Assembly (NCBI GenBank): GCA_020831525.1
Contig: JAFIGH010000031.1
Location: 1-51,355 of the forward strand
From: Opitutales bacterium
GTDB taxonomy: Bacteria > Verrucomicrobiota > Verrucomicrobiia > Opitutales > Oceanipulchritudinaceae
Direction of reading: 5' to 3'
DNA: 51,355 bases
Shown here: positions 7,463 to 22,769 of the stretch, piece after piece
How positions within the stretch are numbered: the stretch's first letter is position 1
Layout: each line of letters starts with the position of its first letter
The notes under the pieces: model-generated
The model's database searches: none
Seen by the model: only the letters and a program-made list of their open reading frames with translations
Told to the model about the DNA's origin: nothing
Position numbers and translations under genes: made by a program

Positions 7463-10400
7463 CTACTTCAATTGCCCCAGCGCAACGAGGGCGTCGACGA
7501 CGGCTTGCACCTTGGGGGCGCGGACGCCGGAGAAATGAGCGGAAAGGGCTTTAATCGGGGCTTCCGTGGTCCAGTTGGTATCGAGGGCCACCCTGCGGAC
7601 AAGGGCGGCTTGCTCGGCGAGTTTCGCGGGCCATGGGATTTTCTGTTTCGGGGCGGGCGCGACAACGGCGGCGGCTTCGATGCCCTTCATTTCCCCTTGG
7701 ACGGCTTTGCTTCCCTCCGGCGCTTGGTATTCCGGGCGCAACCAACGGACGGTCCCGGCGGCTTCCTCGGCGGCCCGGCGGGTGTTGAGGTCGAGAAGGC
7801 GGGCAAGGATTTCGTCCGTTTCGAGGTCCGGGGGCCACCCGTAGGCCTCGGCAACCGCCGCGTCCAGTTCGTCGTGAATTTCCCGGAGGACCCCAACAAG
7901 CCCGTCCTCGTAGACCTTGCGCTCCTTCGACGAAAGGGTTTCGCCCGCGCGGACGGTTTCGAGGACGTTGTAAAGCCCGGTGAGGGTCAACCGGGGGTGT
8001 GTCTCCAATTGGCGCTTACGGTGCGCGTCGAGGCGTTCGGCCAATTCGCCGATCCGTTCCTTTTGCTCCGGGGTGGCGTCCGGAAAGGGAAAGGTCTCGA
8101 AGCAAACGGTTTTCACGTAGACCGGGCGATCTTCGAGAAGCGACCCATTCGCTAGCGTCCAAACGACGTGCGGGCGGCTGGAAAGAACACCGAGGCTGAA
8201 TCCATCGGAGAGGGCAATCGCGACAAGCTTGTTGTCCGGCAAAATGGAGGAATCCAAAAACTGGAAAACCCGGTGCTTTGTGGTTTCTACGGTAGCAATG
8301 TAACGGGGGAGTCCGTCCAACTGCGCCCTCAGTTTTGGGTTTGTCTCCCCAAAGAGCCACCAGTTTCGTCTTCGCGACTCGCGTTTATTGTGCTCTCGTT
8401 CGGGTCGAACCCTTTCCGAGACCCATTGATAGACTTCGGGAAAACGGTCTCGAACTGCCTCCGCTTCCATTCCGAACAAATCAATGACCATCACCCCCCT
8501 TGGGCTTTGGGTGAGGTCTCTTCCGTTTCGGTAATCGCGGATGTGGTTTTCGATTCCGGGAATGCGGCCAAGGCCAAGGGAACGGGCTTGCTCCGGGGTA
8601 ACGATGAATCCGGAGCCAAACAGAGAGACGCCCCGGTTGCTAAGGTCGGCATTCGCCCGCAGCGCAACCGCCTTTGCTGTATCCACGCCAACCGTCAGGT
8701 TTGCATTCAGAATGCCCGCCTTGCTTTGGAATTCGACGATGGCGAAGCCTTCCCCGGTGTTCGTTTCCTTCGCGACCGTTGCCAAGACGCCTTCCGCTTT
8801 GCCCGCCGTGCCGACGGTCATGGCGATGCGGACGGCGGCCCCGCTGGCGCTGTCGACCCATGGGTGATCGGGAACGGCGAAACGGAGGGAAAGCGGGGGA
8901 TCGCCCTCCATGTGACGCTGAAGGACGCGGCGGGCGAAGGTCTGGCGGAGGCTGTTCGTCGTGATGAGGCCGAATTGCCGGACCTTGCCCTTGCGCGTGA
9001 GTTCGGCGGCGAGGTCCCACCAATACATGACAAAGTCGGCGGACTCCGGGACCTGCGGAAGGGTCTTGCGGAGCGTTTCAACGTATCCGTCGCCAAGGGC
9101 CTGCCGCATCTTCGCCGGGCCGATGAAGGGCGGATTGCCGACGACGAAATCCGCTTCCGGCCATGTCGCCGGGCGGGGGTTGGCGTAGTCGTAAACGGGA
9201 ATGCGGGCGGATTCGTCCGGGACCTCTTCGCCGGTGGTCGGGTGCGGTTTGTAGGTCCGCCCGTCCCATTGGGTGACGAAACGGCCTTCGGCGTCCTTGC
9301 GCGGTTGCGGGTCTCCGTCGCAGGCAAGGACGGCGTCCCGGCATTCGACGGTGTGAAACTTGGAAATGACCGGTTCGGGCGGGTTGACGTTGCCCCGCGT
9401 GCGGAAGTGCCATTGCAGGTATCCAATCCACAAGCACAACTCGGCAAGGACGGCGGCGCGGGGATTGAGTTCGAGGCCGAGGAACTGCGAGGGGTGGACG
9501 GTTTCCCCGGCCAGTTCGAGGCCTTCCTGCGTTTCGCCCATGCGGGTAAGGGTGTCGATGATCTCACCTTCAAGCCGCTTGAGGTGTTCGAGAGTGACGT
9601 AAAGGAAGTTTCCGGACCCGCAGGCGGGGTCTAAAACGCGGACGTGGCAAAGGCGGCGGTGAAAGGCGGAGACTTCTTTGACGGCGGCCTTTTCCTTCCC
9701 CTGCTCAATGAGGGCGGAGGCGGCGGCTTGGACGGCGTCCCATTCGGCCCGGAGCGGTTCAATGATCGTCGGGAGAACCAACCGCTCGACATAGGCGCGG
9801 GGGGTGAAGTGCGCCCCGAATTTGTGGCGTTCGGCGGGGTCAAGGGAGCGCTCCAAGAGGGTGCCGAAGATGGCGGGTTCAACCTCCCGCCAATCCGCTT
9901 TTGCCGCCGCGATGAGCAATTCCAGTTGTTCCGGGGTGACGGTAAGGGCTTGGTGCTCCTCGAAGAGACCGCCGTTGAACTTCAAGACCGTTTCGCGGAG
10001 TCCAACGGAAAAGCCTCCGGTGTCCATTGCCTTCCAAACTTCTTGAATGACCGGGACGAAGCCCCCGAGGTCGTGCCCCCGGAAGGACTCCAGGAGTTGC
10101 CCGAAGCGGGCTTTCGGCAATAGGCCGATGTCCTCGGCGAACATCGTGAAGATGCAGCGCATCAAAAACCCGGCCACCAAGGGCGCGGGGTTGCCGCTCG
10201 CCTCCATGGATTGGGCGAGCTTGGCGAGTTGGGCGGCGATTTCCTCGGTGACGCGGGAGGCAATCCGGGAGGGATCGAGGGAAAGCGGTGCCGTCCAAAT
10301 TTTGCGAAGGCGTTCGCGGACTTCCGGCTTGGCGAGATCGGCGAGAAAAAGGCGGTGACTCCGGGGGTCCGGGTAGGGGATGTAAATGCCCCCCGTGCGG

Positions 10401-10876
10401 CTGAACTCGGAATAGACCTCGATGGAATGGCCAACGTCGACAACCAAGAGAAAGGGCGGGCGGCCTTCCTCCAAGGGCAGGGCGTGAATGTAGTCCTCCC
10501 CCTGCCGCTTGGCGCGCACCATGGCTTGGTCCCATTGCCCCGTCCCGCGCGTTCCGTGACCGGTGCGGGCGGCCCCGTCTTCCGCTCCCTGCTTGGCTTC
10601 GAGGACGAAGCAACCGCGTTTGTAGAGGTCAATCCGGCCCGTCGTGGTGGACCCGTCCGGCTTGGTGAAGTTCACCCGCTTTTCAAAGACATAGGCGTTT
10701 CCGGCTTCGTCCGGGACCGAGGGTTGGGGCGGCTCGACTTCGAGAAGAGGGCAGAGTTCGGAAAGAAAAAGCTGGTAGTTCGCCCGCTCCGAAGCCCCCG
10801 AACGGACCCAACGGGAAATGAAGTCTGCCGGATTCACCATGCGGTGGAAGGTGAGGGGCGGACGCGGCGAAATCAA
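7463..10876 (-). CDS. MmeI-like single-chain restriction endonuclease-DNA adenine methyltransferase (type IIL/IIG)
   Basis: A 1137-residue fusion that should both cut and N6-adenine-methylate DNA. Near the N-terminus, [18 protein letters not shown] places Asp83, Glu93 and Lys95 in the D-x9-ExK spacing known for the MmeI nuclease. A helical spacer follows. Then comes the methyltransferase with motif [10 protein letters not shown] (about residue 416) and motif IV GNPPF (about 580), an N6-adenine type. The C-terminal half contains the target-recognition region (FIVTPEQA..., [10 protein letters not shown]) and an alanine-rich tail with a winged-helix-like end. It is longer than MmeI itself (about 920 residues). 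The start is TTG at 10876 or ATG at 10840. One protein carries both activities, so no partner gene is required; small membrane-protein genes flank it on the same strand. Confidence 0.88.
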
Positions 10877-14366: not shown

Positions 14367-14713
14367 ACCCGGGGAGCGGAAAATGTGGTAATTGCCAACT
14401 CAAATCAGATTTCATTTTAAACCATCTATGTATGAAACCTCCACTGTGAATAAGTTTTCTTTGCTTTGAGTTATCGATGGCACAGGCGGGTGGGGGACGG
14501 CTTGCGGGCGTCGGTGTTTGTGAAACGGGAGTCCATTGCCGGATCGTAGCGGTGCCGGACTGCCGTTGAAGGGGAATGCGGGATTGTGTGTTAGCGATTT
14601 GTGAAGGGCGCGGGTGAATACCCTGTCTGTCCGACCGAATCAACCCAGTTCGGAAGTTTTTTGTTCCTGCCGCAGGGAGAGACTGTCTAATGGACGGGAA
14701 ACATTCGGTCTTT

Positions 14714-14754: not shown

Positions 14755-15204
14755 ATGGCACTTCCGCACGCGAATCTCACCGCCCACGCCCGCACCGCGC
14801 GGATCCGCAGTGAAATCCTTTTCGGTCTGCACCGGGCCATGGAAAAGGTGATCGATGCGGAGGAGCGGAAGGACGAGGCGGAGGCCGACCGTATCATCGG
14901 TGAGGCGGTGGCCGAGACAGTGGCGGCTTTGCAAAAGCGCGGTTTGCCACCGGAGATCTTTGATGAGCGCCGCCTTGCATCACTCTTTCTAGAAGTGCGC
15001 CGGGCACGGTATGCGGAGCATCCCCGTACCGCCTACGCAGCGCCGGCCTTCAGTGTCGTGGAAGGCGAGCGTTCTGTTGCGGAGGAGCCCGCGCGTGCGG
15101 CTGACGGAGCGCCGCCGCCGGCAAGACCGCCGGTGCGCCGCCGTGAGCCGAAAGAACAGGATATCGCGTCGATGATCGACGATATGCTCTCCCGCTCCGG
15201 CTGA
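14755..15204 (+). CDS. Unknown protein upstream of the MamK-like actin
   Basis: 149 residues from the ATG at 14755. Residues 8-90 are helical and charged (TARIRSEILFGLHRAMEKVIDAEE..., RRLASLFLEVRRAR). Residues 90-130 are a Pro/Ala-rich flexible linker. The last ~18 residues (EQDIASMIDDMLSRSG) form a compact amphipathic helix that looks like a short binding motif. No signal peptide or membrane segment. It lies about 100 bp before the actin-like gene on the same strand with no terminator between, so a filament partner or regulator is a reasonable guess, but only from position. Family not recognised. Confidence 0.65.
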   Translation: MALPHANLTAHARTARIRSEILFGLHRAMEKVIDAEERKDEAEADRIIGEAVAETVAALQKRGLPPEIFDERRLASLFLEVRRARYAEHPRTAYAAPAFSVVEGERSVAEEPARAADGAPPPARPPVRRREPKEQDIASMIDDMLSRSG

Positions 15205-15305
15205 CCAATTTTTCGGCGGGAGTACTGCCGCTGCTCTGCTGAGTGGCTTGCGCCGTATTCCGCCCGAATTCACAACAAACAACACCCAACGTCACCTATA
15301 ATAAT

Positions 15306-16457
15306 ATGACCACAAAAACCGAATTGCCCGTGAACGAAAAGCCGACGCCTGCCTCCGCTCCTGCGGCGGATCCCAAGCCCCGTGCCACAAAGCCGTCCCG
15401 TACGCTCCTCGTGGGGTTCGACCTCGGCACCAATACTTCTTGTGTCCTCGCCGGGGCAAAGAACTCGACCGACTATGATGTGAGCAAGGTGGTTCCCTCC
15501 GTGGTTGGGTATGTGCGCGAGGGGCTCGTCAACGGCATCCTTCCCGCCGGCACGGATCTTCTTTTCGGCGACGATGCCATTGAGCACAAGATCCACCTTC
15601 GCTTGGTGTGGCCGGTGCACGACGGCATTGTCGGCGACGCCGATGCTGTCCGCGACTTCATCGGCCATATCCGCGATCTTGTCGGCGCGGACGAATCCAC
15701 CGAGATCCGCGCTGTCATCGGCGTTCCGGCCAATGCCGACGATGCCGCGCGGGAGGCAGTGCGCAAGGCGGTCACGGGCATCTTCGACCGGGTCCTGCTC
15801 ATTCCCGAGCCCTTCCTTGCCGCCCTCGGCTTCCGCGATGATTCGCGGTTGGGACAGAGCGGCTATGTCGATCCCGTCACCAATTCGCTCTTCATCGACA
15901 TCGGCGCGGGCACGACGGACCTCTGTCTCGTCCAAGGTTATTTCCCCGGGGCGGACGACCAGATCAGCTTCCAGTTCGCCGGTGACAGCATCGATGACCT
16001 CATCCGCGCCGGGCTCGCCAAAGTATATCCCGACCTCAAGCTTTCGGACCTTCAGATCCGGGAGATCAAGGAGCAGCACGGCTACTGTGGGCCGAGCCGC
16101 CGTCCCATTGACGTGCGGGTGATTATCGGGGGCAAAGGGCGCACCATCGAGGTCGCCGATATCCTCGGCGACGCCTTCAACGAACTCGTCGACCGGGTGT
16201 ATGAGTCACTCAAGGTACTCATTGAGCGTGCGTCCTCCGACTCCGTTCGGGAACTCCTGCAGAACATCCTCATCACCGGCGGCGGCAGCCTCGTGAAAGG
16301 TATCGACACGGTCCTGCAGAAGCGGATGGAAGCGGACGGCTACGAGAACCCGCGCGTGCGCACAGTCGGCAAAGACTACAAGCGCTTTGTCGGCATCGGC
16401 GCCCTCAAAGCCGCCCGCGCCGCCCGTGACAATCAGTGGCAGGTGGTCTTCCGCTGA
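15306..16457 (+). CDS. MamK-like bacterial actin
   Basis: 383 residues, actin/Hsp70 ATPase fold. After a disordered ~30-residue start come phosphate-1 VGFDLGTNTSCV (36-47), phosphate-2 FIDIGAGTTDLC (196-207) and the adenosine loop ILITGGGSLVKG (321-332). Details fit MamK better than MreB or ParM: VVPSVVGYVREG, LFGDDAI, VWPVHDGIV, VIGVPANAD, EPFLAALG, PGADDQI and IKEQHGYCG can be aligned one after another with MamK as I remember it. MamK polymerises into filaments that position magnetosomes, but no other mam gene is present here. The natural cargo is therefore unknown. The gene is second in a two-gene unit. Confidence 0.8.
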   Translation: MTTKTELPVNEKPTPASAPAADPKPRATKPSRTLLVGFDLGTNTSCVLAGAKNSTDYDVSKVVPSVVGYVREGLVNGILPAGTDLLFGDDAIEHKIHLRLVWPVHDGIVGDADAVRDFIGHIRDLVGADESTEIRAVIGVPANADDAAREAVRKAVTGIFDRVLLIPEPFLAALGFRDDSRLGQSGYVDPVTNSLFIDIGAGTTDLCLVQGYFPGADDQISFQFAGDSIDDLIRAGLAKVYPDLKLSDLQIREIKEQHGYCGPSRRPIDVRVIIGGKGRTIEVADILGDAFNELVDRVYESLKVLIERASSDSVRELLQNILITGGGSLVKGIDTVLQKRMEADGYENPRVRTVGKDYKRFVGIGALKAARAARDNQWQVVFR

Positions 16458-21764: not shown

Positions 21765-22769
21765 TTATTTTCGGGGATCCTCGACGCCGGACCTCGCCAG
21801 CCTCGGGTGCGCTACGGCGAGGCCCGTTTCCTCCAGTGCTTCAATCGCGGTGCTTGCGGGAGGCTTTTTCATGGCACTCAGCGCCGCGGCGCCCCCGCCC
21901 TCCCGGAGCCACCGTTCGCTGCCGAGAGCCCGTCCTTGCGTGAAGAACCGGAGCTTCAATTGCAGGAGTTCGTGCATCTCCAGCTCGCCGCCCTTGCGCA
22001 CCGCTTCGACGAGCGCCGCGGGGTCCACCCGACCGCCCGATCCGTCCCGCTTTGCCGCCGCGCCTTTGCCCAGCATCATCAGGCGATAGCACGCAAGCGC
22101 CGCGTCTTCACTGCCTTCGCGGGGAAAGCAACGGGCTAGCGCGGTGCGCAGGTCGGCGGCGCCCGCGAGCGCCGCCGCATATCCGCTCCACCGGTAATCC
22201 TCGGGCAGGGCCGCGATACCCGCGCGCACGGGATTCAGGTCGACGTAGGCCGCGACAAGGCCCACAAGCCACGGGGTGTCCTCGATCAACACGCTTCCGA
22301 AGCGCTCCGCCCAGAGCGTGCCCGCTGTTTCGTGGATTCGGTTGAACCATTTTGTGTAGCGCTGCCGCAGTGTGCGCATGAACTCCGAAACGTCGCCCAT
22401 GCGCCGCCTCAACCGCCCGCGCAAGCGCCGCGCCTCCGCCGTCTTACCTTGGGCAAGGGCGTGCGCCAGGCCCGGTGCGTCCAGCCCGCACCACTGTGCG
22501 CGCGCTGTCCCGTAGAGCGCCTGAAAACGGCGCACCAGCTCCGCGTCGTCGCAGAGCGCTGCCGCCGGGTCGATCCGCGCGAGGATATGGAAGTGGTTCT
22601 GCAAACAGCAATAGGTGATCAGCTCGATCCCGCTGAACTCCGCCGCCCGGCGCAGGGCCGACACCCACACTTCCCGCTCAATGTCCGACAGCAAACGCCG
22701 CCGGTGCACAACCCGCGAAGTAATGTGATACACAGCTGATTTATCTAATTTTAGTCTTATTTCTCCCAT
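21765..22769 (-). CDS. REP-associated tyrosine transposase (TnpA_REP, Y1/HUH)
   Basis: 334 residues. The HUH nuclease motif is NHFHIL (His59, His61), and the predicted nucleophile is Tyr175 in AAYVDLNPVRAG. TLWAERFGSVLIED before the tyrosine is typical of the RAYT group rather than of IS200/IS605 transposases. These enzymes cut and join single-stranded DNA at REP/BIME palindromes. A longer than usual C-terminal region (after about residue 190) includes a helical RMDGSGG/VDPAALVEAVRKGG-type part seen in some RAYTs. It is a single-copy gene in this window, with no terminal repeats framing it. Confidence 0.88.
   Translation of the reverse strand: MGEIRLKLDKSAVYHITSRVVHRRRLLSDIEREVWVSALRRAAEFSGIELITYCCLQNHFHILARIDPAAALCDDAELVRRFQALYGTARAQWCGLDAPGLAHALAQGKTAEARRLRGRLRRRMGDVSEFMRTLRQRYTKWFNRIHETAGTLWAERFGSVLIEDTPWLVGLVAAYVDLNPVRAGIAALPEDYRWSGYAAALAGAADLRTALARCFPREGSEDAALACYRLMMLGKGAAAKRDGSGGRVDPAALVEAVRKGGELEMHELLQLKLRFFTQGRALGSERWLREGGGAAALSAMKKPPASTAIEALEETGLAVAHPRLARSGVEDPRK

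Follow-up and report, generated by a model that had tools for sequence, protein, structure and literature searches.

A conserved, fast-evolving partner gene accompanies the actin BeeR in Opitutales and may encode its adaptor or regulator

Besides a folded domain, the adaptor ParR has a C-terminal helix through which it binds the actin ParM. In Magnetospirillum, MamJ attaches magnetosomes to the actin MamK and also alters MamK dynamics (PMC5059902). A further bacterial actin, BeeR, was described in PNAS in 2025, where it is reported to polymerise with ATP into a three-stranded tubular filament, to bear a disordered N-terminal extension whose removal leads to bundling, and to have MamK as its closest relative (PMC11929497). 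According to the same report, the purified protein of Opitutus terrae polymerises without a partner and the hosts of BeeR are non-magnetotactic bacteria; its authors stress that BeeR function is not known (PMC11929497). The main text of that report treats BeeR alone and names no partner gene, and a literature search returned no further paper on BeeR. With BeeR itself already published, what is new here is a conserved family of partners encoded beside it.

The stretch of DNA analysed (the window, 51,355 nucleotides) lies in a 5.3 Mb genome, and a contig of a same-genus relative is labelled Opitutales. On the forward strand, ORF calling places a gene of 149 amino acids at 14755-15204 and an actin gene of 383 amino acids at 15306-16457, each with an ATG start; both were located there by the original prediction, and the four motifs it singled out as MamK-style (VVPSVVGY, VWPVHDGIV, PGADDQI and EQHGYCG) are all present in the actin translation. 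A longer reading frame of the small gene, from a GTG at 14614, is unsupported because the same-genus homolog also begins at MSLPNANLTAHARTARIRSEI. The 101-nt gap between the two genes contains no terminator-like site, and their orientation and spacing make cotranscription in the window plausible. Judging names by reading, we take the pair to stand between a fucose/arabinose-isomerase-like gene and a superoxide dismutase gene, with tadA presumably also among the neighbours. A perfect TATAAT at 15297-15302 ends three bases 5' of the BeeR ATG; it may be due to chance, since the same-genus relative differs there.

Comparison with curated models, solved structures and a reference tree indicates that the protein encoded at 15306-16457 is a member of the BeeR family and not a new MamK. 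Its actin core, residues 34-381, matches the NCBI BeeR model NF053558 with 565.6 bits, passing the curated cut-off of 530, whereas the MamK model NF040964 gives 211.4 bits against a curated cut-off of 400 and the best MreB model 71.9 bits against 293. The best PDB match, covering the whole length, is the O. terrae BeeR filament 8R2N (E 8e-154), with MamK (E 3e-34) and MreB (E 1e-15) further down. In the tree the actin groups with BeeR, and the MreBs, which share the actin fold, form a separate clade with 100/100 support; the exact place of MamK is unsure because it is represented by a single row on a very long branch. A separate, true MreB is encoded in the same genome (492.6 bits), and a general scan of NCBIfam and Pfam up to E 1 found no plasmid-actin model (ParM, AlfA or Alp). 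The original description of the actin as MamK-like thus stands in so far as MamK is the nearest classical family, but the protein belongs to BeeR; an orphan MamK identity was considered and rejected on these scores. Its exclusion from MreB and ParM, also part of that description, agrees with the cut-off, the clade and the lack of any ParM model match.

The window actin resembles BeeR of O. terrae (B1ZZL4, PDB 8R2N) in full length, in its conserved core and in an N-terminal extension. In BeeR this extension has 30-50 residues and is predicted to be disordered; in the window actin it covers residues 1-33 and looks disordered by composition, with many P, A, K and T residues. Several residues that make cross-strand contacts in 8R2N keep their character: E153 and I277 are identical, E149D, R157K, R242K, N246D and L284I are similar, and T307V and Q310E differ. 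Two residues named in PMC11929497, R252 and N380, are His and Gln in the 8R2N sequence numbering while the others match, possibly through a numbering slip in that paper or in the numbering used here. BeeR is called conserved across Verrucomicrobiota in PMC11929497, whereas in the present genome samples it was confined to Opitutales, with a patchy distribution.

The partner protein is predicted by AlphaFold2 to consist of three parts. Residues 5-88 (14767-15018) form an N-terminal domain of three helices (5-37, 41-61 and 71-88; pLDDT about 90), residues 92-135 (15028-15159) a hypervariable, disordered linker with a pLDDT of about 50 across most of its length, and residues 136-149 (DIASMIDDMLSRSG; 15160-15201) a C-terminal tail modelled as a helix over 137-148 (pLDDT 74-90 with the partner folded alone). 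In an alignment of 73 family members the tail has the highest mean column conservation of the protein and the linker the lowest; the tail follows approximately the pattern (I/V)xx(M/L/F)(I/L)Dxx(L/Q), with D142 being D or E in 73/73 rows. These values agree with dN/dS estimates of 0.64 for the linker versus 0.13 for the tail, obtained by a Nei-Gojobori-style count from a single genome pair (the window and its same-genus relative), which also gives 0.10 for the N-domain and 0.04 for BeeR; relative to that genome, the small gene is under purifying selection. The flexible middle and compact helical tail (IASMIDDML) first proposed from the letters alone are both corroborated by conservation, dN/dS and structure prediction.

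To define the extent of the family, about 100 BeeR loci from Opitutales were oriented and their upstream ORFs read, revealing that a small gene immediately precedes BeeR in almost all of them. Where the partner seemed to be missing from a locus, the cause was in several cases a minus-strand orientation, an overlong BeeR frame, an overly strict final motif position or the end of a contig. The ortholog of the same-genus relative (G130, locus L041), likewise upstream of BeeR, is 74% identical to the window partner, yet mean column identity across the 73 aligned partners is 15%. Used as a single query (P0002), the partner retrieves the same-genus ortholog only, and a single-protein search of genome contigs with P0001 retrieves three close relatives only; the rapid evolution of the partner defeats searches with one sequence and calls for an alignment spanning the clade. 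HMMs of the N-domain built from one clade find the partners of other clades, with all matches lying directly upstream of BeeR, and this selection uses the N-domain and not the tail motif. The tail motif occurs in 90/99 partners versus 11/524 control ORFs, counts that are partly circular because partners were first picked by a looser form of the motif. In O. terrae the partner lies 47 nt upstream of BeeR and ends in the tail VADLIESML, and the BeeR of this locus (L042) is 100% identical to 8R2N over 380 residues. Pfam and NCBIfam return scattered, chance-level matches of one or two members only, the best match of the partner profile among PDB sequences has an E of 0.08, and Foldseek finds no known fold for the N-domain at E 0.001. 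By these searches, the partners constitute an undescribed family, fast-evolving yet conserved, that is represented neither in Pfam or NCBIfam nor among PDB sequences.

The upstream position and the joint occurrence of both genes uphold the suggestion that the actin and the small gene form a two-gene unit. In the order sample BeeR is present in 19/132 genomes, the partner in 19/132 and both in 16; in the Opitutaceae sample the figures are 68/200, 69/200 and 64, and in the phylum sample 10/10 partner genomes carry BeeR. Genomes share ancestry, so these counts are not independent samples, and single cases weigh more. BeeR can persist alone, as intact copies in genomes lacking a detectable partner show: four Opitutaceae genomes (G402, G453, G474 and G551) have this arrangement, three of them with BeeR directly after rplU-rpmA, at the expected place of the partner, as do G012 and G015, the latter only 64% complete. 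A targeted search of the BeeR-only genomes turned up no convincing partner, although a family as divergent as this may escape detection by homology. A clade comprising loci L039, L040 and L102 has BeeR directly after rplU-rpmA with the partner missing, possibly through natural loss.

We consider it fairly probable that the two genes form a cytoskeletal unit whose partner protein is a dedicated adaptor or regulator and docks on BeeR via its tail. BeeR would assemble with ATP into a stiff filament, as others observed with the O. terrae ortholog in vitro, and the upstream gene would supply its dedicated binding partner. The folded helical N-domain may oligomerise or hold a cargo or membrane factor, and the flexible linker would connect it to the C-terminal amphipathic helix, which we infer to dock in a hydrophobic groove of BeeR, like ParR on ParM. 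The partner would then tether something to the filament, or set where and when the filament assembles. The more specific reading, in which tail docking serves to move or anchor cargo and the pair constitutes an undescribed Opitutales adaptor-filament system, a non-magnetotactic counterpart of MamJ-MamK, seems to us evenly poised between right and wrong.

The likeness to known systems is one of working plan. ParM-ParR offers an adaptor that likewise combines a folded domain with a terminal helix, but no ParM model matched the window actin, and the ParR domain is a ribbon-helix-helix whereas the partner N-domain is predicted as a three-helix fold with no match to a known family. In MamK-MamJ, too, an actin filament has a variable companion, which serves both to attach cargo and to tune filament dynamics (PMC5059902). 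The window actin is related to MamK only distantly, no magnetosome context was seen around it, and the partner is likened to MamJ in its proposed way of working.

The partner might instead bind BeeR purely as a regulator of assembly, whether by binding monomers, nucleating, capping or preventing bundling, and not as a cargo adaptor. The combination of a short amphipathic helix with a long disordered linker would equally fit actin regulators of the WH2-peptide kind. MamJ, moreover, tunes MamK dynamics besides tethering (PMC5059902), and the reported bundling of BeeR deprived of its disordered N-terminus suggests that control of bundling matters (PMC11929497). A separately folded, conserved N-domain under the constraint described above nevertheless exceeds the needs of a simple peptide regulator, and we regard this explanation as rather unlikely.

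The two genes may also be functionally linked without any contact between partner and BeeR, the tail instead binding the N-domain of the partner itself or some third protein. The tail is predicted to be helical even with the partner folded alone, and it could pack on the N-domain instead of BeeR. One locus (L067) contains a natural in-frame read-through of partner and BeeR, which was modelled with AlphaFold2 by reading the stop as Gly; the tail is again helical (pLDDT about 80) and lies between disordered stretches, and a structure search with this model simply returns BeeR 8R2N. Against a tail that ignores BeeR, the sole BeeR-less lineage that keeps the N-domain (G105 and G118) has no tail, which, although a single case, suggests that the tail's target is BeeR and leads us to judge such an arrangement improbable. 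The tail-less homologs, in same-family genomes, occupy 1453-1869 in G118 (L151) and 1453-1848 on the reverse strand in G105 (L153), and adjoin a coaBC-like flavoprotein gene; they perhaps reflect an older or independent role of the domain.

The pair might also simply be inherited together, its two genes sharing transcription but no function. Distances among partners and among BeeRs do correlate (Mantel r 0.82), as inheritance of a block would give, but several individual cases make mere co-inheritance very unlikely. The pair stays together in differing neighbourhoods, after what we take by reading to be rplU-rpmA or near presumed htpG-like or rluA-like genes, so conservation attaches to the pair rather than to the region. 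In G011 BeeR and the partner are on different contigs and both are kept, the partner with the tail FDDLESILNEAL. In three genomes (G399, G433 and G478) BeeR is present twice, and so is the partner. Partner and BeeR also decay together: the five partner-only Opitutaceae genomes all have damaged or truncated loci, with both genes broken by stops or truncation in G470 (L169), an internal deletion in BeeR in G488 (L170), a deletion that fuses the N-domain of the partner with the C-terminus of BeeR in G516 (L171), a BeeR extending past the contig end in G563 and a partner fragment at the end of a contig in G458. A functional link between partner and BeeR is, on this evidence, well supported.

That the actin is a MamK left behind by, or transferred from, a magnetosome island can be set aside as extremely improbable. 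Close as MamK is among classical actins, the score falls far short of the MamK cut-off, BeeR occurs across Opitutales together with a partner family of its own, and beyond the window actin and MreB no MamK-like gene was found in the genome. Magnetosome genes are, weakly, indicated to be absent from the genome; the magnetochrome model PF18509 had no match in it, but this search is uninformative because controls were equally silent.

A conserved companion in nearly every genome examined is a first concrete lead to the role of BeeR. As the partner adjoins the very gene whose product has been solved (O. terrae, 8R2N), BeeR function becomes open to ordinary experiments, and the proposed docking, if true, would provide another actin and adaptor pair for comparing the cargo-handling filaments of bacteria.

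Some further features were observed in passing. The second BeeR loci of G399, G433 and G478 (L104, L105 and L106) encode a diverged BeeR type with its own partner, and the partners of this type have different tail ends, such as DMIDALQ and DMLDALEE. Elsewhere in the window, the reverse strand encodes at 7463-10876 a large NPPF-motif protein that, by reading, resembles the DNA methyltransferases found in restriction or defence systems, and at 21765-22769 a protein that its HFHIL motif suggests, again by reading, to be a REP-associated (Y1-type) transposase-like protein.
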